This document shows positions 5,123-42,136 of a stretch of DNA of 54,934 bases, in pieces; within the stretch, counting starts at the first letter, position 1, and each line of letters starts with the position of its first letter. Both the position numbers and the translations under genes were made by a program. This stretch comes from Candidatus Omnitrophota bacterium. GTDB lineage: Bacteria > Omnitrophota > Gorgyraeia > B26-G9. The stretch spans positions 1-54,934 of the forward strand of contig JAHITY010000006.1 of NCBI GenBank assembly GCA_018817165.1, in the 5' to 3' direction. The notes below the pieces were generated by a model. That model saw only the letters and a list, made by a program, of their open reading frames with translations. It was not told the origin of the DNA and ran no database searches.

Positions 5123-6478
5123 CTATATTGCCTGCTCAATAAAGTTCAGATTATTTGACTTAAAATCAAGCTTAAACAATTTATCAATCTTGGACACAAT
5201 ATTTATACCAATAGTTTCCTCTATACTTAAAATAGCCTGTTCTTTTGCTCCAGAAACAAATCCCGGCATTGAATAAATTGTACCGATTAGCAAAGGAATC
5301 CCGATTATAGCCCCTAAACTTAAATGAGTCGACCTACGATATATAAACTTTTCTAGCTTCTTTTTGGGAATAGTAATCTTAAAAACCGCTCCTGAATGTT
5401 CTTTAGCATTTTCAGCCGTTATAGTACCTTTAAAATGTTTCTCGATTACCTGGCGACAAGTCATTAGCCCCATTCCATGAGCTAACCCTTCCTCAGTCGT
5501 TTCAATGAAACTCTGTCTAAAGATCAAGTCTATTATAGCAGCATCTGAAGCTATTTCAGCAGTCTCATAGCTTAAAAATCTATCATCAACTGCTTTTTGC
5601 CTTAATATTTCTATATCAAACCCTTTCCCATAATCTGTAAATACAATGATAATATCTTTTTCATCCTCACTAATTTTTACATTATAATTGGATTGCCCAG
5701 AATGTTGCCAAACATTATTCCTTAAACTTTTAATCACGAAATTCAAGCCACTGCGGTAGCCAAAAAACTTGGGATTCTCCAGTCCAAGTACATCCAAAAT
5801 CATGGATCTTTTTTCTTTCTCAAATAAATCCTTTATATCAAATTCAATTTCTTCTGCCCCAAATACAACAGAATTTACATGTTCAATTATAAAATCAATA
5901 CAAGAAATTCCTTTTTCTAAGCCATATTCATAGCCCTTACTTAAAGTGCCTTTAGCTTGCAAAGCCTTCAAATCTGGATATTTCCATGTCAGTCCATTTG
6001 CCTGCATGATAATTTCATTAAGCATTTCTACGCTGGGGAGGTTCCCCTCTTCAAACTCAGGGGCCAAGGTTCTTTGAAAAAGCATTAGGTCTTCAACCAT
6101 TATTTGTATTTTTTTCAGATCATCTTTATTAATAGCATCTTTTTCAGCTTGGGTGACAGGCATTGCAAATATCGGAGCCACATACGAATCAAATTCATGC
6201 TTAATTATACTTAGTTCAACAAAAACTCTGCCCGCAAGAGTTAAATCACCATCACTCTGGATTAAAACACTTGGATCATAATCTTTAAGAATTCCAGCCA
6301 AATAACCCTCACTTAACCTAAAAGAAAAAACCGGTCTCAAAACATCATTATTAATCATCACTCTAGGCGATAATGTATCAGAACCTTGCCGCAAGCCAAT
6401 TTCCTGAGCAAAGCAAATATTAGTCACAAAAAAAGTCTGAATTAAAATCAGTATAAATATTTTTTTCAGTTTATTCAT
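5123..6478 (-). CDS. Exported GHKL (histidine-kinase-type) ATPase, LSP/-AI family
   Basis: A 451-residue protein with a signal peptide (about 1-24, core ILILIQ, cleavage near CFAQ), then DTLSPRVMINN at 34-44. A GHKL ATPase domain lies at about 240-372: N box LRNNVWQH (252-259), DYGKGF (282-287), GMGL (335-338) and a final GAVFKITIP. No histidine phospho-acceptor helix is evident, so this is not a plain sensor kinase. A hydrophobic segment follows at about 387-405 and the protein ends in EQAI. If exported, the ATPase would face a compartment without ATP, or the signal peptide may serve as an anchor. It is last in a three-gene operon, 15 bases after the HTH-repeat gene. The function is unknown; an anti-sigma-like or signalling ATPase is possible. 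Confidence 0.75.
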   Translation of the reverse strand: MNKLKKIFILILIQTFFVTNICFAQEIGLRQGSDTLSPRVMINNDVLRPVFSFRLSEGYLAGILKDYDPSVLIQSDGDLTLAGRVFVELSIIKHEFDSYVAPIFAMPVTQAEKDAINKDDLKKIQIMVEDLMLFQRTLAPEFEEGNLPSVEMLNEIIMQANGLTWKYPDLKALQAKGTLSKGYEYGLEKGISCIDFIIEHVNSVVFGAEEIEFDIKDLFEKEKRSMILDVLGLENPKFFGYRSGLNFVIKSLRNNVWQHSGQSNYNVKISEDEKDIIIVFTDYGKGFDIEILRQKAVDDRFLSYETAEIASDAAIIDLIFRQSFIETTEEGLAHGMGLMTCRQVIEKHFKGTITAENAKEHSGAVFKITIPKKKLEKFIYRRSTHLSLGAIIGIPLLIGTIYSMPGFVSGAKEQAILSIEETIGINIVSKIDKLFKLDFKSNNLNFIEQAI

Positions 6479-6493
6479 TTTTCCCCATTTACT

Positions 6494-7960
6494 TTAAATT
6501 GCATTATTGATCAACATTTCCGCTTGCCCTGCTTCTGACAAGCTATTACTATGCCCTAAAATTATCTGCACAGAAACATTCTCCTGATAGATCCTATTAA
6601 TATCTGCCTCTAGTTTATCTCTAATTAAAGATTCAGATAGATATAATCTCTCTGCTGTTAGTTTGACATTAACATTTGTTTGCTCAAGCATCGGAATAAC
6701 AACACTTCTCAGTTCTTTCACAAGCTTTCTTTCCTCAGCCGCCTGCTGTCTAATGTAAGCTATTTCCACTTTAAATCTTCTGCTGATCGGTTCATGACTT
6801 AGCCCTAATATATCCATAGCGCTGCGAACATTTCCTTTTGTCTGCCATAGAACCGGAATAATTATTTCCGGGCGATAGATAACATTATAAATATTGACCT
6901 TCACTTCTCTGAACCTTTGGATTAATTGAATCTCATCAATCCCTAGTTCCTTTGCAACCTGTTGCATCCAATCTTGACTATCAATAAATTTGTCAACTGC
7001 CGTCAGTAATTCCTGTCTTCTGGGATCTACTCCGGTAGCGTTTAAGCGTATATTATTAATATTAATCCCTGATTTTCTCATCCTGTCGCCCAAAGTTCCC
7101 CGCGCCAAACCTAAATAAGCCTCCACTTCTTCCCTACAATTTTTTTTGTGTATAAATATATTAATCGCTGCTAAAATCTCTTGTTTCTGGGATCTTTCAA
7201 TTCTTTCGATATTTGCTTGTTTTTGCTTATCTATCCATCCATCAGTAAACACTGAATACAGAATATACTTACCAACTTCTTGTTCAACTAGTCTTTCATC
7301 TTTTAAAGCACTCTGAACATTCCATTGATTATCTTCTAAAACTTTAATTATCAGCTCTTTTAATTCTTGTTCCGCAATAGTTCTATTAACATTGATCACA
7401 TCCGAGGGTATAAGTTCATAAATCCGTTTTTTCCAAATCCCAGTTTCTTGGGAAGCGCGCTCAACATTCCAGCGATATGCCTGTAAAGCACAAACAAGCA
7501 TTTCTTTTTCTAATTTAAGTTCCTTGGCTCTTTGCTCTTCCCTGCCCTGTGCAATAACTTCTCTGCCAATTATTTTATTTATTTTCTTCCGACCCATCCT
7601 AAGATATTTTTCTACTTTTCCCAAATTAAATTTATATTTCACAAGAGACCGCATCACCAAATGATATTCGCTTTCTTTCTCAGATATATGCTCTGAAGAA
7701 GTTTGTCCGGCTATTTGCGAATCATAAGTTCCACTACTGTCATTTTCTTTACTTGACCAGCCATTTGACTGCAAAGCAGCAATTACTTCATCATTCTTCA
7801 ATATTGCGACAAAAGCATCCTGCAAACCGGCATCCTGAATATAAATACTCGGCGACATATTTTCCCGACAAAAATCATCCGCGAAATTAAACGCCTGAAC
7901 CGGCGCTAATAATACAATCTGGATTAATAAGCATATTGTAATTGTTTTGAGTGGTCTCAT
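6494..7960 (-). CDS. Exported protein with seven Fis-like helix-turn-helix repeats, LSP/-AI family
   Basis: A 488-residue protein with a signal peptide (about 1-23, core CLLIQIVLL), ENMSPSIYIQ at 33-42 and a C-terminus INNAI. From about 101 to 450 it carries seven copies of a 30-38 residue unit that reads like the Fis-type HTH: a hydrophobic helix, a polar N-V/W-N-V turn, A...LG, then a second helix. Approximate units are 101-131, 153-184, 202-233, 260-298, 316-352, 364-397 and 417-450. The clearest are 153-184 (YRWNVERASQETGIWKKRI) and 364-397 (TKGNVRSAMDILGLSHEPI). Fis HTHs normally bind DNA in the cytoplasm, so seven behind a signal peptide is odd. The start lies 14 bases after the helicase stop and has no clear ribosome site, which suggests coupling. 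I know of no named family with this layout. Confidence 0.7.
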   Translation of the reverse strand: MRPLKTITICLLIQIVLLAPVQAFNFADDFCRENMSPSIYIQDAGLQDAFVAILKNDEVIAALQSNGWSSKENDSSGTYDSQIAGQTSSEHISEKESEYHLVMRSLVKYKFNLGKVEKYLRMGRKKINKIIGREVIAQGREEQRAKELKLEKEMLVCALQAYRWNVERASQETGIWKKRIYELIPSDVINVNRTIAEQELKELIIKVLEDNQWNVQSALKDERLVEQEVGKYILYSVFTDGWIDKQKQANIERIERSQKQEILAAINIFIHKKNCREEVEAYLGLARGTLGDRMRKSGININNIRLNATGVDPRRQELLTAVDKFIDSQDWMQQVAKELGIDEIQLIQRFREVKVNIYNVIYRPEIIIPVLWQTKGNVRSAMDILGLSHEPISRRFKVEIAYIRQQAAEERKLVKELRSVVIPMLEQTNVNVKLTAERLYLSESLIRDKLEADINRIYQENVSVQIILGHSNSLSEAGQAEMLINNAI

Positions 7961-7974
7961 ATTTTAAAATTAAT

Positions 7975-10900
7975 TTATATTGCTGATTGTACAAAATCAT
8001 TCGCTGATATTTCTTTGCTTTTACTTAATTCTATATTCTGCATATCCAAACAAAGCTGAACTTTACCCTTATGATTAAACAGACATGAATATAAATGATT
8101 TGCCCGCGGATAGTTTTGTTTTGTCAAAACATCCAAAGTTTCTCTATCACCGATAACATTAAGTTTACCTTTATTCCGGCTTAGCAGTACCAGCAATGCC
8201 TCGGGTTTTGCGAATTCAGGCTCTGACAAAAATAATGGATTTGTCTTTTTAAACCCGTTTCCATTTACTTGTTCCCTAATATTTTTTTCGCTTCGCACTA
8301 ATGAAACCAACACTATTTTATTTTCTCCGCCCTGAATACTTATCGGAGTAAAAATATTTTGTTTTAATATTTGCGAATCAGCATCTGAAAAATTAGCATC
8401 GATCAAATCACTGATCAGTTTTATCTGTCCGTTGTAATATGTAATTACCGTAATATCTTCCGGTTTATTTCCTTCGGCCAAAAAATATTTTATTCGTTTT
8501 AAGATCCAAAGCGCTTCTGTTTTATTACAAGGGCTGCTTCCATATTGATAAGGTTCAGCAAATGATTGTTTTTCCCAAGTTGCGGTATCTTCAACAACAA
8601 AAGTATCAGCGTCTATTTTATCACCCCGTTGATTACTAATGCTTTGCAAATTAATCACTCCCCGGTACCATTCTTTGAGCAAATCAACACTAATCCATGG
8701 ATTCCGGTAATTAACCAACAAACTTACTCGATTAAACGGCATTGCGATCAACTCTTTAAATGAACTGATATGATACCGGCAAATAGCTTTCTGTGAAATA
8801 TTTTTTTGAAATAATTCCATTATCTTCCCGGAAAATCTTGATGCTAATTTATAGGGAGAAAACTGCAGATGATCCCCAACTAAGATCAAAGCATCAGGCT
8901 TGAGAATATACAAAGCCGTAATTAATTCCGGATAATTTATCAGGGCTGCCTCATCAACAATCACAGTAACATCTTTTAGAAATTTTGCTGATTCAGGATT
9001 GCGTAACTGATTAATCAGCAAATCCAAACTTGCGCCCATATCAGTTCCCACAAACAAACAGCCATTATCTTCTTCGGTTAGATTAAGTTCTTTATACCTG
9101 CGCATGAATTCTTCTTGGGCTGATGTTGAATGCCTACTGTATTTAACCAGAACTTCTGAATTAATTTTTCGCTGATTTTTACCACAACGTATCACAGGCA
9201 TTTGAGAATTTCCGGCAGCTAAAGTAATATCATCCGCGATCTTATGTTGCGGCGCTATAATAAAAACCGGTTTTTTCTTTTTCAAGATAATATTTTTTGC
9301 TGCAGCCAGTAATACCCTGGTCTTGCCTGTGCCAAACGGACCTAAAACTAATCCAAACTTTGTTTTTAAAATCATATTAACCGCTGCTTTTTGAAATTTG
9401 TCCATCCCTTCTGCGTAAGCAATATCTTGTTTCAACTCTTCAATATCATTAATATCTTTTGCCGCTGATTTAATCCTTAGAAAATAATCCAGAACGGCGA
9501 TACCAGTACTTTTATCTTTACCATTGATTTTTCTGATAATTGTTTGCAATGTTTTCCTCTGCAAATCTTCAGAATGCGTACTCGGAATATAATAAAACTT
9601 AACTTCTTTTCGATCTAAAGGTAAACCTTCTGGCAAGTAATTTTTTTTATTTGCGGGTTTTAAAAGCAGTTTACTGCCGGCATTAAGGATATTACTGCAT
9701 TTAAGCTCATAGTACTTTCCTTCCGACTCCATGACGATATCACTACCAGGCTCAATTTTCGCCAAAGCCTCTGAGAATCTTACCTGAATAACCAGTCCAT
9801 CAGTTTCCCTGTTTATATTGAATACAATCAGCTGCTCCATACCGCTATCCATTTCAGCATCAATAACTTGTTTAAGCAATGCAACTTGCCCCTTAAGTTC
9901 ATTCTTAACAGCATCAACTGAACGAAGCGGAATATTCTCAGGATCACATAAAATTACAGCCTGAGCAAACTCATCTAGTGGCTTTACTTGTTTTTTAGAT
10001 TTAGATATTTGAGGATTACCCTTATCCGGCTGAGTTATTTCAGATGTCTGAATACTTTCATTTTGCGGCTCTGGCAATATCTCTGCCAATTTTTTATTAT
10101 TTTCTTTTATCGCAGTTAACAGCTCTGCTTCTATTGTTCTCAGCTGTTTTTTAAGTAAGGAAAATTCGCCTTTTTTTACAACAGCAATACCTTGCTGCAA
10201 TTGATTAATCTTTTCTTGAAACCTTATAACTGTATCAACAGGTAATTCTTGATATGCAGCATCAAAAACTGTTGTTAATATTTCTAATGCTTTTACTAAA
10301 ACATGTTTTCTAGCAGAAACAGTAGACGGGATAAAACCATCTAATTGCTCTGAACTATCTTGCGATGCTTGATCAAGAATCACTGATTGTGTGTTCAAAT
10401 TATCTCGTTGAGCTTCTTCTGCTTTAGCTTCAACTTCAAACAGCTCATGATTAGAAAATGATTTATCGTGATCTTCGTTTGTTAATTCAGGCAAATCATT
10501 AGTATTTTTAGGTCCAGGCTTTAAGGTTCGATTCTTAAGTTTATTCTTTTTTAAGGATTTTCCCTTTTTACCCGTATCACCAATCCGAGATAATTCACTG
10601 GCCAAAGCGCCATGTTTTAATAAAGCTTTATTTAGTTTGATTCCCAGTTCCAGTAAATCATCCCAATCCCCTTGAGTTTCAACAGTATTAAATGATTCCT
10701 CAAGGCTATTTATCTGCTGTTCATATGCTTCAATCAAATCCAATGACTTAATCCATTTCCTACGTTCACTGAAAAGTTTTTTAAGTTTTTTAATATCCTT
10801 GATAAATTCTTTCTTTTGCCTAGCTTTAGGAGTATATAGCGCATCACGCCTTGCCAGTCTTTTTTTAAACAAAAGATAAACCAGATTATTCGTTTTTCCA

Positions 10901-11178
10901 GCAGTTTTTTTTGCTTTGGCATATTCAGTCAATCCATTCAAACTTGTTAAACTTCTAAAAAACCCCGGATTTACAGCTACTTCTCTTTCCCATACACTAT
11001 TAATAAACATGCTATTTAAATCAGGAGTATTTAACATAATCCGCGGCGATAGGTTTCCCTGTTCAGTTTTATGTTTTGTGAAATTCCGGCTTTTGATTTC
11101 ACAAGCCATCCCCATATTACCCAGCAAAAGTACTTGGATTAATATCAAGCTGATTATTTTAAATAATATTTTATTCAT
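7975..11178 (-). CDS. Exported SF1 (DNA2/UPF1-like) helicase, LSP/-AI family
   Basis: A 1067-residue protein whose C-terminal half is a superfamily 1 helicase: Walker A GPFGTGKT (613-620), Walker B VDEAA (741-745), motif III GDHLQ (768-772), LLVNYRN (821-827), ITYYNGQ (912-918), SIQGGENK (947-954) and LLVLLSRNKGKLNVIGD near 1000. The ATPase residues look intact. The first ~25 residues form a signal peptide (core SLILIQVLLL, end MGMAC), followed by GNLSPRIML (41-49). Residues 100-400 are charged, helical and rich in Lys/Gln. The protein ends in QSAI. An SF1 helicase behind an export signal is unusual: either it is exported and meets nucleic acid outside, or the N-terminus anchors it at the inner membrane. 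It is first in its operon, with a promoter about 120 bases upstream. Confidence 0.8.
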   Translation of the reverse strand: MNKILFKIISLILIQVLLLGNMGMACEIKSRNFTKHKTEQGNLSPRIMLNTPDLNSMFINSVWEREVAVNPGFFRSLTSLNGLTEYAKAKKTAGKTNNLVYLLFKKRLARRDALYTPKARQKKEFIKDIKKLKKLFSERRKWIKSLDLIEAYEQQINSLEESFNTVETQGDWDDLLELGIKLNKALLKHGALASELSRIGDTGKKGKSLKKNKLKNRTLKPGPKNTNDLPELTNEDHDKSFSNHELFEVEAKAEEAQRDNLNTQSVILDQASQDSSEQLDGFIPSTVSARKHVLVKALEILTTVFDAAYQELPVDTVIRFQEKINQLQQGIAVVKKGEFSLLKKQLRTIEAELLTAIKENNKKLAEILPEPQNESIQTSEITQPDKGNPQISKSKKQVKPLDEFAQAVILCDPENIPLRSVDAVKNELKGQVALLKQVIDAEMDSGMEQLIVFNINRETDGLVIQVRFSEALAKIEPGSDIVMESEGKYYELKCSNILNAGSKLLLKPANKKNYLPEGLPLDRKEVKFYYIPSTHSEDLQRKTLQTIIRKINGKDKSTGIAVLDYFLRIKSAAKDINDIEELKQDIAYAEGMDKFQKAAVNMILKTKFGLVLGPFGTGKTRVLLAAAKNIILKKKKPVFIIAPQHKIADDITLAAGNSQMPVIRCGKNQRKINSEVLVKYSRHSTSAQEEFMRRYKELNLTEEDNGCLFVGTDMGASLDLLINQLRNPESAKFLKDVTVIVDEAALINYPELITALYILKPDALILVGDHLQFSPYKLASRFSGKIMELFQKNISQKAICRYHISSFKELIAMPFNRVSLLVNYRNPWISVDLLKEWYRGVINLQSISNQRGDKIDADTFVVEDTATWEKQSFAEPYQYGSSPCNKTEALWILKRIKYFLAEGNKPEDITVITYYNGQIKLISDLIDANFSDADSQILKQNIFTPISIQGGENKIVLVSLVRSEKNIREQVNGNGFKKTNPLFLSEPEFAKPEALLVLLSRNKGKLNVIGDRETLDVLTKQNYPRANHLYSCLFNHKGKVQLCLDMQNIELSKSKEISANDFVQSAI

Positions 11179-20915: not shown

Positions 20916-23714
20916 CTAAGCTTTATCTTTCTGACTGGATAATAAAGCCACTGGAAAATATTTCAATACATCTCCCAGATAAATGCCGCCTTGAACCTTA
21001 AGCTTTTGAGAGGTGATTATATCTTCCCATTGACTTTGTTTTTGAAATGGCAGAACAATCCGCGTATCTTTCCAAACTTCAGAACCAAAAGGATATCCGC
21101 CCGGTTCAACAAACTTTGTATAAAACCGCGGAGCAATTGTTATTGTTTTATTTTCATTTTTTTGGCGCATAAACGCTATCACACAATCAGCGAATTCTCC
21201 CTCCACAGCAAGCGGAATATATTCCCCTTCTTGGAATAGCTTAATCGCTTTTTGTCGAAAATGGAGTAATCGGTGAATCAAAAATAGCTTGATTCTGCCG
21301 TCTTCTTTGCCGGAATATAGTTCTTCCAGCAAAGCCAATATATTCTCCGGAATTTTTCGAGCAATATAATCTATATGCTTATCCAATGTTTTAAAATCAA
21401 CCGGCCTTCGATTATCAGGGTCCACCAAACTTAAGTCCCATAATTCTGTTCCCTGATAAAAATCAGGTGTTCCCGGGCTTGTCATCTTAAGGATTACTTG
21501 AGAAAGAGAGTTTAGCATTCCAAAAAAAGCTATTTTTTTCTGAAATGGAATAAATACCCTCAAAAACGGATTATCCTCAAATGGAACCAGTATTTTTTCG
21601 ATAAAAGATACAAATTCTCTTTCATATTCTTCATCAGGTTCTATCCACGCGGTATGCACCTTTGCTTCTCTAACCGCTTTAACGCTATACTGCTTAATTC
21701 TATCCACATAATTTTCTTCAAACTTAAAAGGAAATGTTCCTAAAAGTGTCTGATAAAGAAAATATTCATCATTGGCAGTAGGGATAACTTTATTACTTGC
21801 CTGGTTTTTCTTTGCTTTATTCAGCTTTGTCCATTGCTTCAAATTTACTTCCCACTGATCAGCAAATTCCGAAAGGACACTGATACGCATCCTTACATCC
21901 TCACCACGTTTTGTATCATGAGTTGCTGTTGTATTTATACTCAAAGGAGCTGAAGCGTATCTTTGTTTATTAAATTGATGAAACTTTTCAGCTAGACAGC
22001 CAAATCGAATCGGGTCCCCCCCTACCTCATTAAGCGAAATAAGTTTATTGTAGACATAAAACATTGTATCTTCTAATCCCTTTGCCATCAGCGGACCTGT
22101 CTGCTGCTGAAAGATCATTACAAAATGCAGCCACTTATCCTTAACTTCTTCAGTTTGATTGCTATCGTATTGCAATAAAAGAAACTTCTCAATAAAATCA
22201 AACTCATAACGCAGTTCCGGCCTTAGCATTTTTACCTTTTTTAGCGTGTTTAAAATATATTCCTTATCCTGAGCCATATATATTTTTGAATTAATATATG
22301 TCCGATAAATCGGAAAGTGCGCTAAAAGCTCAACAAGCGCCCTGCGTAAAGCATATAAGGTAATATCACGGCCAAATCGATCATGCGAAGATATCTTCTT
22401 TATATACTGAGCGAGATTATCGACATTTCCCGCCATATGTTTACCGATAATCAAACGTTTTTTTTCACAAACAAGCGCTTCATATGATATCCGCAGTTCG
22501 GCATAACGATAATAAAGCCTGCTTATCGCACGTTCATTTTCTTTATCGCAAAAAAACATATTAACCTGTGCTAAAAAATCATACCCGGTTGTACCCTGTA
22601 TCGGCCATTCGCTGGGAATTTTTTCTTCTCCTTCTAATATTTTCTCAATTACAATATATGCCTTCGGCATTGCCTCTCTTAACCATTGCATGTATATTTT
22701 AGGATCATATAGTCCGTCAATATGGTCAACACGCACGCCATCAATATAATTATCATTGTAAAGCTTTATAATTAATTCATGAGTTATATCAAAATTTTTC
22801 CGCTCTTCGACTCTTACCGAAATAAGATCATTCACTGTAAAAAAGCGTCTGTAATTGATCTCTTCAGTCGCGACTTTCCAAAAAGACAAACGAAACATTT
22901 GCTCCGCGATCAGCTCATCAAGCGAATCATAACTATGGCTATCTCCGGGAGCCCCATTAAAATTCTTAAGAGTATCACTCATGATCTTCTGAACAAACTC
23001 GCTTCTCGCGTGCAAATCACTAAGTGCTTGTTTACCATAAAGAGTTTGTTCATAACGGTCTGTTTTACTGTCGATAGATTCAAACGATTCAAAAAAATGC
23101 TTTATCCCGATAAACTCAACTAAATCCTTGTTTAAAGAAGAATCCTCTTTTTCAACCAAAGGAATTAACCGAGATAATACTTTTGAATAAGATTCAACCT
23201 TAAGCGGAAAAAAATGATCATAATATTGAATGCCCAGTCTTTGGTCTCGATACACTAACTGTAATTCTCCAGACTCAAGACATTCAGCATAGAACTTCCC
23301 GAGCACGGGAACTAATACTCGGCCACGTAAATTATCATATGGATGCCCCCAGTCAATATCAAAAAAATCATAATACTGCGAATAGCTTCCATATTCAAAA
23401 ATATCCATAAGAAATTTATTATCATAATGAAAAGCCATGTGATTAGGTACAATATCCTGAATAATCCCTATTCCCGCGCTATGAGCTTCCTGTGATAAAA
23501 GTTTGAATTGCTCCTCGCCGCCTAATTCTTCACTGATTACGCAAGGATCTACAATATCATATCCATGAGTGCTTCCGGGTCTTGCTTTAAATATCGGCGA
23601 TAAGTAAAGGTAAGATATCCCCAATCGCTTAAAATATGGGATTAGTTCCCTAATATTAGCAAAACCAAATAAAGGAGTAAGCTGCAGCCGATAAGTAGAT
23701 ACTGGATTTTCCAT
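20916..23714 (-). CDS. treY: Malto-oligosyltrehalose synthase
   Basis: TreY rearranges the reducing-end alpha-1,4 bond of maltodextrin to alpha-1,1, giving maltooligosyl trehalose. It is 932 residues, in the upper part of the family range. Signatures are the N-terminal STYRLQL, LYLSPIFKARPGSTHGYDI, IVPNHMAF, the catalytic-region VRVDHIDGLYDP, IVIEKIL (acid Glu), TTGYDFL and the C-terminal TATHDTKRGEDVR and SPGTPDFYQG. It is the last gene of the sugar operon and overlaps the GH57 stop (TGATG), so translation is probably coupled. TreZ, its partner enzyme, lies two genes upstream. Confidence 0.95.
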   Translation of the reverse strand: MENPVSTYRLQLTPLFGFANIRELIPYFKRLGISYLYLSPIFKARPGSTHGYDIVDPCVISEELGGEEQFKLLSQEAHSAGIGIIQDIVPNHMAFHYDNKFLMDIFEYGSYSQYYDFFDIDWGHPYDNLRGRVLVPVLGKFYAECLESGELQLVYRDQRLGIQYYDHFFPLKVESYSKVLSRLIPLVEKEDSSLNKDLVEFIGIKHFFESFESIDSKTDRYEQTLYGKQALSDLHARSEFVQKIMSDTLKNFNGAPGDSHSYDSLDELIAEQMFRLSFWKVATEEINYRRFFTVNDLISVRVEERKNFDITHELIIKLYNDNYIDGVRVDHIDGLYDPKIYMQWLREAMPKAYIVIEKILEGEEKIPSEWPIQGTTGYDFLAQVNMFFCDKENERAISRLYYRYAELRISYEALVCEKKRLIIGKHMAGNVDNLAQYIKKISSHDRFGRDITLYALRRALVELLAHFPIYRTYINSKIYMAQDKEYILNTLKKVKMLRPELRYEFDFIEKFLLLQYDSNQTEEVKDKWLHFVMIFQQQTGPLMAKGLEDTMFYVYNKLISLNEVGGDPIRFGCLAEKFHQFNKQRYASAPLSINTTATHDTKRGEDVRMRISVLSEFADQWEVNLKQWTKLNKAKKNQASNKVIPTANDEYFLYQTLLGTFPFKFEENYVDRIKQYSVKAVREAKVHTAWIEPDEEYEREFVSFIEKILVPFEDNPFLRVFIPFQKKIAFFGMLNSLSQVILKMTSPGTPDFYQGTELWDLSLVDPDNRRPVDFKTLDKHIDYIARKIPENILALLEELYSGKEDGRIKLFLIHRLLHFRQKAIKLFQEGEYIPLAVEGEFADCVIAFMRQKNENKTITIAPRFYTKFVEPGGYPFGSEVWKDTRIVLPFQKQSQWEDIITSQKLKVQGGIYLGDVLKYFPVALLSSQKDKA

Positions 23715-26140
23715 CAGACAACCCTCACTTTAATCAAATGTCCTAGTTCATCAAATGCGTCAATCCACTGATTACACCGCAAATCGCCCTGGTCTCTTTT
23801 AGCTATCATCTCATCAAGCATAGTCTTCCCTTTGGTAAAATATAAATTTTGCGCTTTCCATATATCCAAATCAAGCTTAAGCTTTTCAATCTCAAACAAA
23901 AGACTTTTGATATAAACCATCTCTTGGATATTATCAATCGCTTCTGCCCATTGCTGAAATAATTGATCGATTCTATTACTTGCCAAATAACTAAGCATCG
24001 CATTATCCAACTTAATTTTCCAATGTTTGACATCATCAACAAGTCTTCGTAATACAAGCAAATTAACTCTCTCTTGCTTAAGAACATTCCGAATATCCGC
24101 GTTTAATACATACTCAAGAACCGAAAGTAAATGCTTGGGCAGCGCCATATTCAGCCCCCCCACACCGCGTATAGCAGGATAATAACGGTCGTATATTTGT
24201 CTAAAATAGTTTTCCATTTCTTTTTCTGTATTCGTGAACATCTGATTCAAAACAGCTCTTTGTTCATCTCTAAATAAATGCCATAAAGAATAGTTATGGG
24301 TCTTAAAATGTTTATCAATAGCGTGAATAAGCTCTGACACCTGATTAAATTGAAAAGTTTTTATAATTTCTAACCGCATTTTTTCATAATCATCAGCCTG
24401 AACATATTCCCTTACCCCGCCAACGATATTATGATCGCCTAAATAAGCAACCGCAAAACTTACCAAAACTTTTTCCAGCGTACCTAAAGATTGAACTTCA
24501 ACCAGTCCGGTAACTAACTTCTGCCTGCCGATTTCTATCTTTTCGCTCTTAATTTCCTTGATTGAATAATTAAAAAGCAATGTTGTTTGTTCGTATTCCT
24601 TGAATAAAGACGATACTGCATAGTGCACCCCCACCCGCTTTAGATCCAGCATGGCAGGCTGCACAAAAAGTTCATAAATATGCGCCCCATGTGAATATTG
24701 CGCGATATTGCTTTTCGCTCTTTCCAGCAAACCAATAAATGAAGACTCTAATGATATCCCGCTTATTTCTTTTACAAGTTGCAGCGCGCGCGCCGCATAC
24801 TGAATGATTTGAACAGTCTCAATCCCGGAAAGCTCATCAAAAAACCATCCGCAACTTGTATACATTAGCATCGCGTGTCTCTGGCTCTCCAGCAATTTCA
24901 AAATTTTAGTCTCTTCCTCTTTTGAACATTTACGTTTTACATGTTTCTTAAAAAACTCCTGAATCGCGTCAGTATCGCGATCTAACAACATTTCGATATA
25001 ATCATTTCGCAGGTCCCATGGCTCAATATTATATTTACTTAAAGTCTTTTCATATACTTGGGCCATATGATCACGCAGCCAATCAAGCGCTTCTCTCAAA
25101 GGGGCGCGCCATTGCTGATTCCAACCGACATTGCCTCCTGAATTACATCCGCAATTACTTTTCCACCGCTCAATTCCATGAATACAACTCCAGGAGGAGT
25201 TTTCAAATATTTCCACTTCTTCTCGCGGAGGATACTTTGCCAGATAATCGCCGTAAACAGTGATCTGAGCTAAATTCTTCGACTCAATATTATACAAACA
25301 ATACGTAAGTGCCATTTCTCCTTTGCGATGATGGTGCCCATATGTCTCGCCATCAGTCGCTATATGAACTAGTTGCGCAGACTCACTGTCCGGGGTAAAA
25401 GCAGAGATAAGCCTATTTGCGAATGTTTCCCCATTATCTAATAATCCGCTAAAAGCGATATCCTGCGATATTAAACCATCGTAAAAAAATAGTACAATGC
25501 TTTTTCCTGATGGCAAGTTACAGCGATAGGGCATCTTTGGATCAATTCTTCCATCCTTAACAATCCGCCAACGGCCGCCTTCAATCTTACGGCAGCGGTG
25601 TGCTTGGCGCGGAGCGAGAATGGTAAAAGAAATATTTTGTTCTGCTAATATTTCTAAAGTCTCCAGATCAACCGCTGTTTCGGCCAACCACATACCTTCC
25701 GGCTTTCGCTTAAAACGATGTTCAAAATCTTTAATTCCCCAGATTATCTGAGTCCGTTTATCCCGGGAATTAGCCAGAGGCATTATCATATGATTATAAA
25801 CCTGCGCCAAAGCTGAACCATGACCATTATATAACTCAAGACTCTTCTTGTCTGCCTCTAAGATGGCCTTGTACGTCTCAGGATCATGCCGCTCCATCCA
25901 GGAAAGCAATGTCGGCCCAAAGTTAAAGCTTATTTTTGAATAATTATTAACAATGTTGATTATTTTTCTTTCATTATCTAAAATCCGCGAAGCTACATTC
26001 GGCTGATAACATTCCGCTGAAATACGCTCATTCCAATCATGATAAGGATATGCCGAATCCTGACATTCAATTTCTTCCAGCCAGGGATTTTCTCTTGGCG
26101 GCTGATAAAAATGCCCATGTATGCAAATATATTTTTCCAT
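23714..26140 (-). CDS. GH57-family alpha-glucan-active protein (DUF3536-like)
   Basis: An 808-residue protein of glycoside hydrolase family 57. The N-terminus reads YICIHGHFYQPPRENPW, the GH57 nucleophile region is WLAETAVDLETL (Glu about 154) and the acid region is ATDGETYGHH (Asp about 263). The long C-terminal half is helical and matches, from memory, the DUF3536 extension found next to glycogen and trehalose genes. GH57 enzymes include alpha-amylases, 4-alpha-glucanotransferases and branching enzymes, and the exact reaction here cannot be told. Placed between treZ and treY, it may trim or rearrange alpha-glucan for TreY. It overlaps both neighbours by one base. Confidence 0.85.
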   Translation of the reverse strand: MEKYICIHGHFYQPPRENPWLEEIECQDSAYPYHDWNERISAECYQPNVASRILDNERKIINIVNNYSKISFNFGPTLLSWMERHDPETYKAILEADKKSLELYNGHGSALAQVYNHMIMPLANSRDKRTQIIWGIKDFEHRFKRKPEGMWLAETAVDLETLEILAEQNISFTILAPRQAHRCRKIEGGRWRIVKDGRIDPKMPYRCNLPSGKSIVLFFYDGLISQDIAFSGLLDNGETFANRLISAFTPDSESAQLVHIATDGETYGHHHRKGEMALTYCLYNIESKNLAQITVYGDYLAKYPPREEVEIFENSSWSCIHGIERWKSNCGCNSGGNVGWNQQWRAPLREALDWLRDHMAQVYEKTLSKYNIEPWDLRNDYIEMLLDRDTDAIQEFFKKHVKRKCSKEEETKILKLLESQRHAMLMYTSCGWFFDELSGIETVQIIQYAARALQLVKEISGISLESSFIGLLERAKSNIAQYSHGAHIYELFVQPAMLDLKRVGVHYAVSSLFKEYEQTTLLFNYSIKEIKSEKIEIGRQKLVTGLVEVQSLGTLEKVLVSFAVAYLGDHNIVGGVREYVQADDYEKMRLEIIKTFQFNQVSELIHAIDKHFKTHNYSLWHLFRDEQRAVLNQMFTNTEKEMENYFRQIYDRYYPAIRGVGGLNMALPKHLLSVLEYVLNADIRNVLKQERVNLLVLRRLVDDVKHWKIKLDNAMLSYLASNRIDQLFQQWAEAIDNIQEMVYIKSLLFEIEKLKLDLDIWKAQNLYFTKGKTMLDEMIAKRDQGDLRCNQWIDAFDELGHLIKVRVV

Positions 26141-27981
26141 TATTTATTCGTCTCCATTCCATACAGCGCAAAATGATATGGGCTGAGATGGATTAATGAT
26201 TCTGGCTTTAAATCATTGGGCGAATTTCTCCCAATACTACCCCATTGTTTATCATATGAATCTATTATTTTAGAAGCATTTGACATTTTTTCATCAATGC
26301 TGATAGTTTCTACCTTAGCACTAAAATTCATTATACATAAAATATTTTGATTTTTATTTTCTCTTTTTAGCAAAACAACATTTGTTTCTGGCACAAGCCA
26401 AGCGCGGTTTTGCGAACGCTCAAAAACCTGCGGACAAATAAAGCCCTTTCTGATTTTAATCAAGTTCTTATACCACATTAATAGCTGTTTATGTTTATTC
26501 TTAGTCAATTTTTCCCAATCAAGTTTTGACTGTTCAAATGTTTCTTGGGCAAACGGATCAGGAAGTTCTACTTCCCAGCCAAATGACTTAAATTCATCCT
26601 TACGTCCATTGCGAACTGCTTCAATCAGCCAATCATCAGAATGACTTATAAAATAAAGAAAAGGATTGGTTTCCCCATATTCTTCGCCCATAAATAAAAG
26701 CGGGATATAAGGCGAAATAAGCATGCATCCCGCGGCCAGCTTTAGACCCTCAAATGGCACTAAAGCTGAAAGTCTTTCTCCCAGCATTCGATTACCGATC
26801 TGATCATGATTCTGAACAGAAACAACAAATTGATCCCCGCTCAAATCTAAAACAGAATTGCCATAAACCCTTTTCCTGAAAGAAGAATAATTTCCCGAAT
26901 AAACAAAAGACTCATTCAGAGATTTAACTATATTCTTAATATCATTAAATCCCTCATAATATCCTTTTTCTTCCCCAGTCAGGACAGCATGCACTGAATG
27001 ATGAAAGTCATCTGACCATTGGGCATCGATCCCGTATCCGCCCGAGTCTTTAGAGCGAATAATCCGCGAATCATTCAGATCACTTTCCGCGATCAAATAT
27101 AATTTTCGTTGTGCTTTGTCTGAAAAAGCCTCAACCTCTTCCGCCAGTTCCTGTAAAATATGCTTTGCGCTGGCATCAAATATACCGTGGATTGCGTCAA
27201 GCCTAAGCGCGTCAATATGAAAATGTTTAAACCAATAAAGCGCGTTTTGAACAACAAAATTTCTTACTCCATAACTATAAGCATCATCAAAGTTAAGCGC
27301 GTCTCCCCATGGAGTCTTGTATTTCTGAGTATAGTACGGAGCAAATTCGCGCAGATAACAGCCTTCTGGGCCAAAATGATTGTAAACAACATCAAGAATA
27401 ACCGCGATTCCATTTGAATGACATTCATTGATTAATTGTTTCAAACTATCAGGATTTCCATACGAATTATGCACGGCAAAGGGATATGTCCCATCATACC
27501 CCCAATTTCTTTGCCCGGGAAATTGGGCGATGGGCATCAATTCAATTGCATTGATCCCCAGATCTTTCAGATACCCTATTTTAGGAATAATTGAATCTAT
27601 TGAACCCTTTAAACTAAATGTTCCGACATGGAGTTCATATATAATCATTTCTCCTAACGGTATTCCCTGCCATTTATTATCAGTCCATTTAAATGCATTA
27701 TTATCGAAAACTTTTGATTCTTTATGCGGCCCATCAGGCTGATACATTGAGCCAGGATCAGGCCGATATTCTTTATCATTTATCTTATAAAAATATTTCG
27801 TGTCAGCTGAAATGTTTTTTACAGTAGCAGTCCAATACCCCCACTTATCTTTAAATAAAGATACTTCTTTCTTTTCTGGAAAAGTAATAAATAAAGACAG
27901 AGCCTCACAGGCAGGACCCCATACCGTAAAATCACACATACCATTCTGGCTATAATGCGCGCCTATATTCCGCTTATCCAT
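26140..27981 (-). CDS. treZ: Malto-oligosyltrehalose trehalohydrolase
   Basis: TreZ cleaves trehalose from maltooligosyl trehalose made by TreY. The 613-residue protein has an N-terminal CBM48-like beta domain (about 10-95), then a GH13 barrel: [40 protein letters not shown], nucleophile D262 in [11 protein letters not shown], acid E299 in [10 protein letters not shown], and [12 protein letters not shown]. These are specific TreZ signatures. It overlaps glgB by eight bases and ends at the GH57 start, inside the same operon. Confidence 0.95.
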
Positions 27982-29977
27982 CGGCTGATACCTTTAACCC
28001 CTCTTTTTTAAAAACTACTATTCCCAAAGGAGGCAATGTTAAAGATAAAGAATGATATCTGCCATGGGCAGCTACAGGTGCCGATTCACATCCGGTTAAA
28101 TTTCCGTAGCCACTACCGCCATATTGCTTCGCGTCACTATTAAGCACTTCCTTCCAAAACCCTCCCGAAGGTACGCCTACCCGATAATTAGTACGAGGTT
28201 CAGGGGTAAAATTACAAGCTACCAATATAATATCTCCCGATGTCTTTGCTTTTCGCAGATAAATAACAACACTTCGCTCGAAATCATTACAATCTATCCA
28301 TTCAAAACCAGCTAAATTAGAATCTAACTCATGCAAAGCTTTCTCATTTTTATACAAATGATTGATATCGCGCACCCAAGACAATAACTCTTTGTGCTCA
28401 GGGATATCTAATAAATTCCAATCAAGATGCGTATCATGATTCCATTCATTCCACTGACCAAATTCACACCCCATAAACATTAATTTTTTTCCCGGATGTG
28501 TATACATATAGCCAAATAATAATCTCAGATTTGCCATCTTCTGCCAATTATCTCCCGGCATTTTTCTAAGCAAAGACCCCTTACCGTGAACAACTTCATC
28601 GTGCGATATAGCCAGTACAAAATTTTCATAAAACGCGTACCAGATACTAAAAGTTAATTGACTATGATGATATTTTCGGTGAATAGTCTCACGTGAAAAA
28701 TAATCAAGGCTATCGTGCATCCAGCCCATATTCCACTTAAACCCAAATCCTAATCCCCCTAAATGCGAAGGCCGGGAAACCATTGGCCAGGAAGTTGACT
28801 CTTCGGCGATTGTTTGCACATCCGGAAAGTTTTGATAAATAACTTCATTACATTGTTTCAAAAATTGGATTGCTTCGATATTTTCTCTGCCGCCGAAATT
28901 GTTGGGGATCCATTCCCCGGGTTTGCGAGAATAATCAAGATAAAGCATTGATGCTACAGCATCAACCCGCAGTCCATCGATATGATATTTATCAAACCAA
29001 AACAGAGCATTACTTATCAGAAAATTTTTTACTTCGCTTCTGCCATAATTAAAAATGTCGCTTTTCCAGTCAGGATGAAATCCCTTTCGCGGATCCTGAT
29101 GTTCATACAAATGTGTCCCGTCAAAAAAAGCAAGACCATGCTCATCAGTTGGAAAATGAGAAGGCACCCAATCGAGAATAACCCCAATATTGTGCTGATG
29201 CAGATAATCCACAAGATACATAAAATCCTGGGGTGTTCCATAGCGGCTTGTCGGCGCGAAATACCCGACAACTTGATATCCCCATGAACCATAAAAAGGA
29301 TGTTCCATTACCGGCAAAAATTCAACATGTGTATACCCCATATGATGCATATATTCCGCGAGCAATGGCGCGATTTCTCTATAGCTGAGAAAACTCTCCG
29401 CATTTCCTTCCGGTCTTTTCCATGAGCCTAGATGCATCTCATAAATCGATAGCGGAGCTTCCAGCTTATTCTTCTCCTGCCTTTTTTTCATCCAGTCCGA
29501 GTCTTGCCATTCATAATCAAGACTCCAGACCCGGGATGCCGTTTTGGGCGATAACTCCAAGCAAAAAGCATACGGATCACTTTTATCAACAACATATTCA
29601 TTGCAGCTTGATTCAATATGATACTTATAAAGCGCACCCTCAATAACATCCGGTATAAAACCCTCCCAAATTCCAGAACTATCCCATCGCGCATTGAGAA
29701 AATTTGCTTTTTTATCCCAACCGTTAAAATCCCCGATAACCGATACACTTTTTGCATTGGGCGCCCAAACCGCGAATAAAACACCCTCTTTCCCATCTTG
29801 TTTTATTTTATGCGATCCAAGTTTATCATAGAGATGAAAATGATTACCTTGTTTAAAAAGATGTATATCATAATCATTAATACGCGGATCATTTAATTGA
29901 ACATCCTGTACTTCAAGAGAAACTTCTGGTTTCTTCTTTTGTTTTTTTTTATTTTTCTCAGTTTTTTTAACAGCCAT
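27974..29977 (-). CDS. glgB: 1,4-alpha-glucan branching enzyme
   Basis: GlgB (GH13) introduces alpha-1,6 branches into linear alpha-glucan. It is 667 residues. After a Lys-rich N-terminus (residues 3-17) comes a CBM48 domain (about 50-150; [20 protein letters not shown]), then the barrel with [25 protein letters not shown], nucleophile D339 ([17 protein letters not shown]) and acid E392 ([11 protein letters not shown]), and a C-terminal beta domain. Next to glgE it probably branches the polymer that GlgE extends. It is 13 bases from treS and overlaps treZ. Confidence 0.95.
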
Positions 29978-29990
29978 TTATGTCCCCTTT

Positions 29991-32900: not shown

Positions 32901-33314
32901 ATCACTCCACACATAATAATTTCTATCTTTCGACCCGGGTTTAGCGATCTGAGCGCGTTTAAACCACTGATGCTCTCTTGATGTATGATTAAGCACCAAT
33001 TCCGTAATTACTCGAATACCTCGTTTATGAGCTTCTTTAACAAATTCTTTAAAGTCTTTTAGCGTTCCGTAATCTGCGTGTATTTTATAATAATCCGCGA
33101 TATCATATCCATCATCTTTAAGCGGAGAAGGATAGAATGGAAGCAGCCATAATGCGGTTATTCCCAATCCTTCAAAATAATCCAACTTCTGGATAAGCCC
33201 TTGAAAATCACCTATGCCGTCATTGTTACTGTCATAAAACGCGCGAACGTGCAATTCATATATAATCGCGTCTTTATACCATTGAGGATCTTTTATCATC
33301 ACTGATTCAGCCAT
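29991..33314 (-). CDS. treS: Trehalose synthase fused to maltokinase
   Basis: A 1107-residue bifunctional protein. Residues 1-545 are TreS (GH13), which interconverts trehalose and maltose: [15 protein letters not shown], nucleophile D208 in [16 protein letters not shown], acid E250 in [11 protein letters not shown] and D316 in [10 protein letters not shown]. Residues from about 560 to the end are a maltokinase (Mak/Pep2) that phosphorylates maltose with ATP, with the kinase motifs [12 protein letters not shown] and IIDFEGEP near 980-1000. The fused form hands maltose straight on to maltose 1-phosphate for GlgE, encoded just upstream (15-base gap). Both active sites look complete. Confidence 0.95.
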
Positions 33315-38518: not shown

Positions 38519-39514
38519 TTATTCAATAGGAATAATGATTTTCTGTCCAACTTTTAATTTATTCGGATCTTTAATTGTATCTTTATTTAGCTCATAAAGA
38601 TATTTCCAACGATAACCAGCGCCCAGTTCCTTTTGCGCTATTTTAGACAAAGTATCATTTTTTTGAATAATATAATCTCGGGTTGATACTTTAACCTCGG
38701 TCTCGACATTTACCTCTTTTTCGATAATATATTTCCCCTCTTCAAGCACCGTAGCCTCTTCAATTTCCGTAGCATCCTCTAGGCGTGCCTGTTCCTTGGC
38801 TGGAATCATAACTTCTTTAACTTCGGCAACCATAAATTGAGCATTCCTATCTCTTTGCATACCCTCTAAATCATTTATCGGCGCAACTGCATCAAGTTTT
38901 CCCCGGCTTACAATCAGAATTCTCTCTTCCGGGATGCCTTGCTCAAGTAAATAAGTTTTAACACTTTCCCCTCTTTTTTTGCCGAGTCTCATATTATATT
39001 CATCAGTTCCCCGTTTATCACAATTACCGGTCAGCAAGATGCTTGCTTCTGGATTATTACTCAAACTTTTTACGGTTTGATCTAAAACAGGATAATGATC
39101 TTCCCTCAGCTGAGCTTTATTATAATCAAAGTAGATCTTTACATTCTTTATGATTTTCTTAATCAGTAATGATGGCTTTAATTCCTGAACCTCTGTTTCG
39201 ACTATCGGCGCATATTCATCCGCTTTATAATCAAAAATTATCTTATTAACAAATATATATCCCCGATTCCCCCAAGGCCTGACTTGCCCGGGTTCTTTTG
39301 GCCACCACCAATACCCACTGCGTTCCTGATCTTTGAATACACCTGGTTTTGAATCACTCGGCCACCACTGAAATTGATCCTGCATATCAAGTATTTCTTG
39401 TTTAACTTCTCCCTTAGGCGCTTGCTCTGTCATGGCAATTTTTGTAAAAACAAGCGAACCTAAAAAATAAAATATTAGATTCAAAATTAAAAACACATTT
39501 CTTTTATTATTCAT
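38519..39514 (-). CDS. OmpA-family protein with C-terminal LysM domain
   Basis: A 331-residue envelope protein with an N-terminal signal or anchor (about 5-28), a Trp-rich stretch (QWWPSDSKP, SGYWWWPKEP) of unknown role, an OmpA peptidoglycan-binding domain (about 118-235; IYFDYNKAQLREDHYPVLDQ, GNCDKRGTDEYNMRLGKKRG) and, after a charged linker, a LysM domain (about 283-331; YIIQKNDTLSKIAQKELG, PNKLKVGQKIIIP). Two separate wall-binding domains suggest firm anchoring between membrane and peptidoglycan. The gene upstream is about 640 bases away, and a TTGCCTAA promoter lies about 270 bases upstream. Confidence 0.9.
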   Translation of the reverse strand: MNNKRNVFLILNLIFYFLGSLVFTKIAMTEQAPKGEVKQEILDMQDQFQWWPSDSKPGVFKDQERSGYWWWPKEPGQVRPWGNRGYIFVNKIIFDYKADEYAPIVETEVQELKPSLLIKKIIKNVKIYFDYNKAQLREDHYPVLDQTVKSLSNNPEASILLTGNCDKRGTDEYNMRLGKKRGESVKTYLLEQGIPEERILIVSRGKLDAVAPINDLEGMQRDRNAQFMVAEVKEVMIPAKEQARLEDATEIEEATVLEEGKYIIEKEVNVETEVKVSTRDYIIQKNDTLSKIAQKELGAGYRWKYLYELNKDTIKDPNKLKVGQKIIIPIE

Positions 39515-39810: not shown

Positions 39811-39846
39811 GATTTATAAGATTTTGAGTTTTGGAGTTCCTTCCCC

Positions 39847-40147
39847 TTATTTTATATATAAAAACTTTGGCAAGAATGTTAAAATTAGCAGCTTATCATT
39901 TATCTGCTCCAACATCTTAGCCGCTACTTCTTTTAGCGAATTTTTACCGCTTATCCGCGTAGATCCATATTAGCAAGAAACTCTGTATTTATTATATCTA
40001 AAAAATCCTCCAGCCCAGAAAACTCGGTTAATAGCGCAGAAGGAATTGATTTTTCATCTTTATTTATTGCTTGAGAGTTAAAAGCCCCTTGCAAAATATC
40101 TGAATTAATCTAATTGCAGTTATTTTAAATAAACTCTTCATAAACAT
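39847..40147 (-). pseudogene. Decayed gene with an LSP/-AI-type signal peptide
   Basis: Just after the stop of the HD-GYP gene, ATG at 40147 (or 40141) opens MFMKSLFKITAIRLIQIF, which matches the hydrophobic core with Gln of the exported family, then stops after 27 codons. A second frame continues with LQGAFNSQAINKDEK...LTEFSGLEDFLDIINTEFLAN, and a third with SGKNSLKEVAAKMLEQINDK to a stop at 39847. Read across two frameshifts this gives one protein of about 100 residues. It is either a broken family member or a remnant of a longer one. A real short peptide of 25-27 residues is the alternative. Confidence 0.45.
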
Positions 40148-40156
40148 TATCTTTCT

Positions 40157-42136
40157 TTATATCGCCTGTCCAAGCAATTCAAAACTCGTTTTTTTTAATT
40201 CTACTTTTCTGGGTCTAAAAAAATTATCCGCAATTGGAATACTCACTTCAAGCCTCAATCCTTTATTCAACTCAGGATCCTCCACAATTCTAGAACGCCA
40301 GCCTTTCTCGGATTTAGCCTGATAGAAAACTCTGTATTTACCATGCGCGCTCATCTTTACTTTTCCCTTAAATTTTGCCACTACCAAACTAATTAATTCC
40401 CACAATCTTGTTTTTCCCAAAACGATTTCCCCGTTTGCTAAAGACTTAATCCCTATTTTGGGCTCAACATCCGCCAAATCAGATCCATAACCGTTATCCT
40501 GGATAATAAATCTAACTCTGTCCTTTTGCACAATACGAACAATAACCGCGGCACTGCCTTCACCATATTTAAGCGTACTGCGGATTATTCCATCTAAGAT
40601 AAGATCCGTGTTTTCCTGACCCAACAAAACTCCTAATTCCCAAAAACCATGAACCTGATTCCCTTCTTTTCCAAACAAATAATCCCTTTCAAAACGTTTT
40701 GCTTTTACTCCTTTTAATTTCCTAAAATTAGATAATGCCTTTTCCGCTATAACCGGGTTATCCGATAAAGCCATTTCCATTAAACTTTCCTGTGTAAGAA
40801 TATCATTTAAATTGATTTTTCTCCGTAATGCTTTTACAAAAGCATCGACTACTTCAGGGCAAACCTGTAATTCTTTGCTTGCCTGAAGCTTTTCAATCGC
40901 CTGCTCAAAAGAATAGCCTTTTCGATTTTCATGATAAGGCCGATCAGAAGTAATCGCATCAAAAATATCAGCCACAGCTAAAACTTTAGCAATCGCGGGT
41001 ATTTTATCACAAGTCAATCCATAATAACCTCTTCCGTCAAGGCGTTCATGGTGAAGCACTATTCCTTTTTCAATTTTATCCAGATCAACAAATCTACTTA
41101 AAATATCTGTAAACAGCACATCTCCAACATATAATGTTTTTAAATATTTCATAGCCAAAGATGTATGTGTTTTTATCGTTTTAAATTCTTCATCCGTTAA
41201 TGGCCCTGGTTTATTTAAAATATGGGCAGGAATACTGATTTTACCAACATCATGCAGGATGGCCGCCACTTGATACTCGAATTTCTGCTTCTCGCTTAAC
41301 CCCAACTCTTCGGCGATCATCAACACATATCTTTTAACCCGCAAAACATGCCCTCCGGTATATAAGTCTTTGGCTTCAATCTGATTTGCTAATTTTATAC
41401 ACGCCGCTAAAAAAGCCGTTTTTTGATCTTTAAACTTAAGAGCATCTTCCATCTTTTTTTCTTGTTTATTAAATATTTCCTTTACTAACGTAATATCATC
41501 TTCCGTAAATCCATCGGCTTTATTAACCAACTCCAAAACACCAATAACCTTGCCTCCAATCTCTATCGGAAAACACAATAAGTTATGAGTTTTAAGGTCA
41601 GTAAATTTATCCACTGCCCGGGACATTTTATTTATCATTTTCTGCTCGTTTGCGATAATCGATTTTTTTTGCGCGAGCACCATTCCGCTAATTCCCACAT
41701 CAGAGGGAATACCTAAATATTTTAATTTGCCTGAAGCCGGACCAGTAAAGTATGCAAAATTCAAAAAAGGTTCTTCTCTGTTTTTCAATAATATAGATCC
41801 ATAAGGCGCTTTTGTTTTTTTAATACATAATTTCATGAATGTTTTAAATATAATGTCAATGTCCGGTTTTTCTTCTCCCAAATCTTCAACAAACCCGGAA
41901 AAAGCAGTATCCACTAAGCGCGCAATATCCTGATTAAGATCGCTGACTTCAGGCCCTGAAAAACAACTCTGCTCAGTCAATAGTTTCTCTTGCTCAAGTA
42001 AATAAGCAGATTTAATTAAACTATGATTAATGTTTAAAGCTGGCGAAAGAGTACTATAATCCGCGCACAAACCAGCATTTGTGCTTAGAAATATCTGAAG
42101 CATTATAATAGAACTTATTTTTAATATTTTGTTCAT
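40157..42136 (-). CDS. Exported GAF-HD-GYP protein with C-terminal GHKL-like domain, LSP/-AI family
   Basis: A 659-residue protein with a signal peptide (about 1-25, core SIIMLQIFLS), STLSPALNIN (28-37), a GAF domain (about 90-225), an HD-GYP domain (about 250-440; H263, HDVGK 295-299, HHERLDGRGYYG 362-373) and a GHKL-like region (about 500-636; DNGYGSD 547-553, ending RLEVSIPI). The C-terminus is GQAI. HD-GYP enzymes hydrolyse cyclic di-GMP, and the metal-binding residues look complete; the GYP motif reads GYY. Both the GAF ligand and c-di-GMP are normally cytoplasmic, so an export signal here is strange. It shares its promoter type with the exported helicase operon. Confidence 0.8.
   Translation of the reverse strand: MNKILKISSIIMLQIFLSTNAGLCADYSTLSPALNINHSLIKSAYLLEQEKLLTEQSCFSGPEVSDLNQDIARLVDTAFSGFVEDLGEEKPDIDIIFKTFMKLCIKKTKAPYGSILLKNREEPFLNFAYFTGPASGKLKYLGIPSDVGISGMVLAQKKSIIANEQKMINKMSRAVDKFTDLKTHNLLCFPIEIGGKVIGVLELVNKADGFTEDDITLVKEIFNKQEKKMEDALKFKDQKTAFLAACIKLANQIEAKDLYTGGHVLRVKRYVLMIAEELGLSEKQKFEYQVAAILHDVGKISIPAHILNKPGPLTDEEFKTIKTHTSLAMKYLKTLYVGDVLFTDILSRFVDLDKIEKGIVLHHERLDGRGYYGLTCDKIPAIAKVLAVADIFDAITSDRPYHENRKGYSFEQAIEKLQASKELQVCPEVVDAFVKALRRKINLNDILTQESLMEMALSDNPVIAEKALSNFRKLKGVKAKRFERDYLFGKEGNQVHGFWELGVLLGQENTDLILDGIIRSTLKYGEGSAAVIVRIVQKDRVRFIIQDNGYGSDLADVEPKIGIKSLANGEIVLGKTRLWELISLVVAKFKGKVKMSAHGKYRVFYQAKSEKGWRSRIVEDPELNKGLRLEVSIPIADNFFRPRKVELKKTSFELLGQAI

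Follow-up and report, generated by a model that had tools for sequence, protein, structure and literature searches.

The window analysed here, the whole 54,934 nucleotides of contig JAHITY010000006.1 from a Candidatus Omnitrophota bacterium (GenBank assembly GCA_018817165.1), encodes four proteins with unrelated middles that share both of their ends: a signal-peptide-like N-terminus followed by a short L[SA]P box, and a tail of six residues with the consensus [LF][IV][EGN]Q[AS]I that runs to the free carboxyl group. Dozens of otherwise unrelated proteins from the same genome share the signal-peptide-like start, the box and the chain-end tail. On this basis we propose, with confidence that we put at about even, that the two ends form one bipartite sorting tag used by Omnitrophota, and that the tagged set would constitute an effector-like repertoire. 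The original prediction, made from the letters of the window, had taken the paired ends for sorting or maturation signals that bring unrelated domains to one location; the pairing of such ends on unrelated middles leaves sorting as the best-supported class of explanation.

All four genes reported from the window are present on its minus strand (Table 1), and their products do end in EQAI, NNAI, QSAI and GQAI. Their boxes read DTLSP, ENMSP, GNLSP and STLSP, each placed after a signal-peptide-like N-terminus with a glutamine in its core, as had been claimed. The AI ending is likewise unique to them, being absent from the other 26 open reading frames (ORFs) of at least 150 amino acids (aa) in the window, and Pfam assigns their middles to unrelated families, namely HATPase_c, HTH_8, the AAA_11/AAA_12 helicase and GAF with HD_5. 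At least six of the other window proteins (at 2284, 12737, 36379, 37033, 37974 and 38519) display by eye a signal-peptide-like start without the box and end in KS, FP, NI, KH, NT and IE; hence, the tail is no general property of exported proteins, among which the tagged ones are probably to be counted from the look of their N-termini.

The pairing extends across the genome, which comprises 3.08 Mb in 143 contigs (93.45% complete), the window being contig C106. A profile built from the four window N-termini only (A1) matched 37 places at E<=10, the window four included. The stretches sampled around these matches, and around other places mostly near helix-turn-helix (HTH) hits, amount with the window to 670,502 bases that are enriched for members and hold 444 mechanically called ORFs of at least 100 aa. 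Counted by place, with the window four left out, 22 of the 29 ORFs with an A1 match end in [AS]I as against 27 of the 411 others (Fisher p=6.6e-18); moreover, in 15 of those 27 an L[SA][PA] box lies within the first 80 residues, which marks them as members that the small profile missed. When A1 was rescored on 433 ORFs at E<=0.1, the tail was found in 24/30 matches versus 25/403 others (p=1.6e-20), with 20/24 versus 29/409 at E<=0.01, 28/38 versus 21/395 at E<=1, and 12/30 versus 14/403 at E<=0.1 if AI alone is counted. A 25-sequence profile from the same genome (A2) recovers 57 places at E<=0.1, a few of them implausible as members. Among 12 newly read places, two are implausible (a 54-aa frame and one lacking the box), and seven of the ten plausible, held-out ones end in [AS]I. 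Furthermore, in two apparently split genes (on C102 and C132) it is the second fragment that ends in AI.

Comparable pairing is seen in relatives. A phylum-wide search found matches to the N-terminal profile at E<=0.001 in 87 of 384 genomes, and all ten family genomes among those listed, the window's own included, match with a best E of 5e-8 or lower; a separate family search covered 12 genomes. In 22 stretches from nine relatives, 35 of the 41 ORFs matched by A2 at E<=0.001 end in [AS]I compared with 3 of the 109 others, so that the enrichment anticipated for the tail among box-bearing proteins is strong both here and in the genome sample. A regular-expression count in the family relatives gives 36 proteins with both ends, nine with the N-terminal end only, five with the C-terminal end only and 106 with neither. 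At nine further places in relatives, all five proteins readable to a stop end in [AS]I, three run off their stretch and one lies outside. That homologues keep both ends, as expected by the original prediction, is true of the two orthologue pairs examined: the helicase orthologue in G269 (71% identical) carries NLSPRIMLNT and FVQTAI, and the kinase-like orthologue in G385 (44% identical over residues 19-373) carries DTLSPRIVIS and YLEQSI. In another relative (L139, G166:C78, minus 1-2640), a single frame whose N-terminus resembles a signal peptide and which has an ALSP box unites, by eye, the kinase-like core with several HTH-like repeats, and thus window proteins 1 and 2 may act together. A protein that by eye resembles radical SAM enzymes also ends, in two genomes, in IAI without the N-terminal box and so has the tail only (L047:16066-17082 and L121:13934-14956).

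The make-up of the tag was examined in 78 family members, which were picked for having both ends, so that positions -2 and -1 of the tail are fixed by choice. Position -6 is [LF] in 46 members, -5 is [IV] in 63, -4 is E in 33 and -3 is Q in 40, with A at -2 in 53 and S in 25; EQAI itself closes 18 chains. Thus, the AI tail noted earlier does lie at the very C-terminal end, but is better described as [AS]I, with conservation also at positions -6 to -3, than as AI alone. Similarly, the LSP motif is present but is better written L[SA]P (TLSP in 18 members, TLAP in 13, CLSP in 11), often continuing as x-[ILV]-x-[IL]-[ND], and numbered from the first start codon it lies at residues 32-60 in 71 of the 78. 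The glutamine of the signal-peptide core, found in the window four, is not essential, being present in 43 members. A structural model of protein 1, from a shallow three-sequence alignment, has a mean pLDDT of 56 with residues 10-82 and 374-451 below 50; to the extent that so shallow an alignment allows, both low-confidence ends fit linear motifs lying outside the fold. An amphipathic helix was considered for the tail and rejected, the helical or strand moment being no higher in the 78 members than in other C-termini.

Other families of this Omnitrophota class also carry the tag, with a tail that is specific to the lineage. At E<=1e-4 a broader profile, A5, built partly from other families, finds matches in 109 of 292 genomes. 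Of 51 places picked from the match lists and read, 40 could be followed to a stop, and 27 of these complete proteins end in [AS]A. The [AS]A ending occurs in 25/38 A2 matches versus 5/272 other ORFs of the same stretches, and in 29/43 A5 matches versus 1/267; [AS]I is found in 0/43 N-terminal matches of the other families and [AS]A in 0/41 of the family relatives. Since the other families mostly use [AS]A and never [AS]I in this sample, the tail differs by lineage. Three related signal-peptide proteins of family f4 (L166, L167 and L168) have the tails NL, GI and GI, lack the LAP box and share another conserved stretch, FKNKK, possibly a further lineage code. Many proteins of the other families consist of a conserved N-domain and a C-domain of about 310 residues that flank variable middles, for example HEAT repeats. 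The C-domain (residues 411-726 of L150 and its relatives) yields a confident model and is found on many exported-looking Omnitrophota proteins; its fold has no PDB match at E<=0.001 (best 0.066), and L150 contains no Pfam family. A scan of named genomes with this domain gave 22 loci, every one of which bears Omnitrophota or Omnitrophica in its title, from genomes of the same phylum and class as the window's.

This architecture speaks for a reading in which the ends are inherited without any sorting function, from one fast-evolving exported family that shuffled its middles and kept its old first and last residues. We consider this quite improbable, as the window's family has no more in common than the box and about six residues of the tail, around middles that belong to unrelated Pfam families, and without selection it would be hard to account for conservation that reaches exactly to the final residue.

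The recognised middles carried between the two ends are largely cytoplasmic-type enzymes. In the window's genome they include HATPase_c, HD, HD_4 with RelA_SpoT, glycogen debranching, glycosyltransferase, PPDK_N with PEP-utilizers, PhaC_N, CofD, amino acid kinase, radical SAM, Methyltransf_28, subtilase, HEAT and DUF4135 domains; relatives add methyltransferases, a protein kinase, GGDEF, nicotinate-nucleotide adenylyltransferase and NAD(P)H-hydrate dehydratase. Two relatives, G023 and G141, encode a tagged PFK-domain protein beside ordinary PFKs of 333-414 aa, and the tagged versions keep the GGD, PKSIDND and MGR motifs. A PFK domain also lies in a 1998-aa frame of G057. Two very long frames were observed as well: one of 8,030 aa with the N-terminal end and NNAI at its close (G000:C129:17151-41243), and one of 5,289 aa ending in QTAI whose start, as called, lacks the N-terminal end (G000:C138:21242-37111).

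Such a cargo could also suit an internal compartment, the tag sending enzymes into a membrane-bound space with its own cofactors, much as peroxisome or glycosome signals do. Central-metabolism-type domains among the tagged proteins (PFK, FBP-aldolase, PPDK_N, glycogen debranching, NadD-like and NAD(P)H-hydrate dehydratase) speak for this; the ordinary PFKs beside the tagged one in G023 and G141 speak against it, and as we know of no internal compartment in these organisms we rate it improbable.

We return to sorting out of the cell, for which we propose the following route. The N-terminus would direct Sec export of the chain across the inner membrane; the box and the free C-terminus would then be recognised by a dedicated receptor or translocase, which would carry the cargo to one destination, more probably another cytoplasm (of prey or host, given the epibiotic or predatory life reported for some Omnitrophota) or the outside, and the tagged proteins would serve as an effector-like repertoire. 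Another cytoplasm or the outside is likelier than the periplasm because many recognised cargoes are enzymes with a need for ATP, SAM, NAD or GTP and because PFK, the one family tested, is in its tagged form a divergent copy additional to ordinary ones. (p)ppGpp-type synthetases are known to serve as interbacterial effectors. From these cofactor needs and from reports on Omnitrophota we infer a destination outside, perhaps in prey or host: one describes predatory or parasitic traits and giant ORFs (PMC10066038), and another reports that intron RNA of the predator is present in dead cells of archaea and cites micrographs of open cytoplasmic contact (PMC13153191). A more specific form of the proposal, which we advance tentatively and with less than even confidence, is that a dedicated export pathway reads both ends, with a C-terminal code of [AS]A or [AS]I according to lineage, and delivers dozens of cytoplasmic-type enzymes into the cytoplasm of prey or host, including the kinase-like proteins, the helicase with its DNA-binding partner, RelA/SpoT-like and central-metabolism enzymes, and the giants.

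Several observations weigh against the proposal of a sorting tag. Export of these proteins is itself read from their sequences, and no receptor, translocase or protease was found, S41 proteases being the one family tested for co-occurrence, while sortase, exosortase and secretion-system genes were not searched for. The tail is missing in 6/30 N-terminal matches of the window's genome and in 6/41 of the family, some of these having relaxed endings (NQAV, GAV, RGI) and others quite different ones; three of the ten held-out members end in SL, LI and DI, and 13 of the 40 complete proteins of other families do not end in [AS]A. In many proteins of those families the tail sits on the conserved C-terminal domain, and common descent may hence explain part of the pattern there. 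As for the cargo, 13 of 30 proteins scanned singly contain no Pfam family at E<=0.001, and the extra-copy argument was tried for one enzyme, PFK, in two genomes.

In a different reading the pair is a signal for maturation or turnover, controlling processing rather than destination: a tail-specific protease (CtpA/Prc, S41) would recognise the C-terminus of exported proteins through its PDZ domain, with the L[SA]P box as a second processing site. Tail-specific proteases do read a nonpolar free C-terminus, and an S41 protease is encoded by 24 of 24 genomes tested, in a single copy in 23. Being universal in this sample, S41 does not discriminate: it occurs in nine genomes listed without an N-terminal match as well as in 15 with one. 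A comparison of PDZ domains from 20 proteases found 18 columns that separate five sequences of the family from ten of the AA lineages, two of them close behind the GLG loop, a separation that descent alone could produce. The maturation reading also leaves the box and the cargo unexplained, and we judge it unlikely.

A tmRNA and, by eye, an SmpB-like gene adjoin a tagged cluster on C138, for which reason tmRNA tags were compared with the tails. ARAGORN called a tmRNA at 11 of 21 loci, with none called in the window's genome, and the encoded tags end in VLL, ALR, SVL, ALR, LAL, LPL, AAL, LAL, LAY, LAA and LAY. None of the 11 ends in [AS]I and one (G240) ends in AA; mimicry of the SsrA tag is thus not supported.

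Table 1. Tagged proteins of the window, their terminal motifs and a possible relic
Feature	Position	Strand	Basis or remark
Tagged protein 1, 451 aa, histidine-kinase-like core	5123..6478	-	HATPase_c; H94 invariant in three relatives
Protein 1 signal-peptide-like N-terminus, residues 1-24	6407..6478	-	cleavage site predicted
Protein 1 box TLSPRVMINN, residues 35-44	6347..6376	-	sequence
Protein 1 tail FIEQAI	5126..5143	-	sequence
Tagged protein 2, 488 aa, HTH_8 and further HTH-like repeats	6494..7960	-	Pfam
Protein 2 signal-peptide-like N-terminus, residues 1-23	7892..7960	-	cleavage site predicted
Protein 2 box NMSPSIYIQ, residues 34-42	7835..7861	-	sequence
Protein 2 tail LINNAI	6497..6514	-	sequence
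Tagged protein 3, 1067 aa, SF1-type helicase (AAA_11/AAA_12)	7975..11178	-	Pfam
Protein 3 signal-peptide-like N-terminus, residues 1-25	11104..11178	-	cleavage site predicted
Protein 3 box NLSPRIMLN, residues 42-50	11029..11055	-	sequence
Protein 3 tail FVQSAI	7978..7995	-	sequence
Tagged protein 4, 659 aa, GAF and HD (HD_5)	40157..42136	-	Pfam
Protein 4 signal-peptide-like N-terminus, residues 1-25	42062..42136	-	cleavage site predicted
Protein 4 box TLSPALNIN, residues 29-37	42026..42052	-	sequence
Protein 4 tail LLGQAI	40160..40177	-	sequence
Relic, perhaps, of a further tagged gene	40049..40141	-	weak N-terminal-profile match, E 2.57, one stop inside; degenerate frames 39514-40157 with KSLFKITAIRLIQIF-like start, just downstream of the GAF-HD gene

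A defence system was considered and rejected, since PADLOC gave matches for no protein but the helicase, with MkoA as the best, covering residues 739-1017. No relatives were found in named genomes with the helicase as probe. Promoter predictions near the operon number 30 against 25.2 (standard deviation 5.0) in shuffled sequence, and terminators two against 3.6. Elsewhere in the window, short broken frames at 42136-43050 resemble the start of the neighbouring 2481-aa protein (43043-50488), as if left by a decayed second copy, and sugar-polymer genes lie at 23714-33314, among them genes for an alpha-amylase that has maltokinase-type domains and for a GH57-DUF3536 protein.

If the proposal is correct, bacteria would have a new sorting principle, one in which a protein is read at both of its ends, and the pair would supply a sequence rule listing the likely exported arsenal, giants included, of a largely uncultured phylum with reported predators. 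Two questions would thereby become testable, namely by what means Omnitrophota affect other cells and which functions their giant proteins serve, and the lineage-specific tail would help to find the receptor through co-variation. That no system of this kind was known to the original prediction agrees with literature searches, covering neither subscription papers nor bioRxiv, in which no title or abstract among the papers listed describes such a motif pair. The pair matches none of the sorting tags with which it was compared, although a specialist could argue that it is a variant of signal-peptide-plus-C-terminal-tag systems.

The closest of these are the PEP-CTERM/exosortase, MYXO-CTERM/myxosortase and LPXTG/sortase systems, in which dozens of unrelated proteins of one genome likewise bear a signal peptide together with a sorting tag at the C-terminus. 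Their tags are built of a signature, a transmembrane helix and a basic cluster, whereas the Omnitrophota tag has about six residues to the free carboxylate, no hydrophobic helix and a second, N-terminal box; in the 78 members positions -20 to -7 have a mean hydropathy close to zero or lower, and the chain closes with Ile. The 25 NCBIfam families listed include no sorting-domain model, and no other model matches more than 2 of 46 or more than 1 of 36 members. Type IX secretion is alike in pairing a signal peptide with a C-terminal secretion signal, but there the signal is a folded Ig-like domain; here it is a short tail, no curated model of such a domain is among the NCBIfam families listed, and the C-terminal region of protein 1 is of low confidence in its three-sequence model. 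Further afield, the PEXEL of malaria parasites resembles the N-terminal half of the pair, being a short motif 15-40 residues after a signal peptide that takes unrelated proteins into the host, but differs in its motif, its organisms and its want of a C-terminal partner. The peroxisomal PTS1 (SKL-COOH) resembles the C-terminal half, being a very short signal that needs a free end and serves unrelated enzymes, and differs in its residues and in acting with neither a signal peptide nor an N-terminal box.
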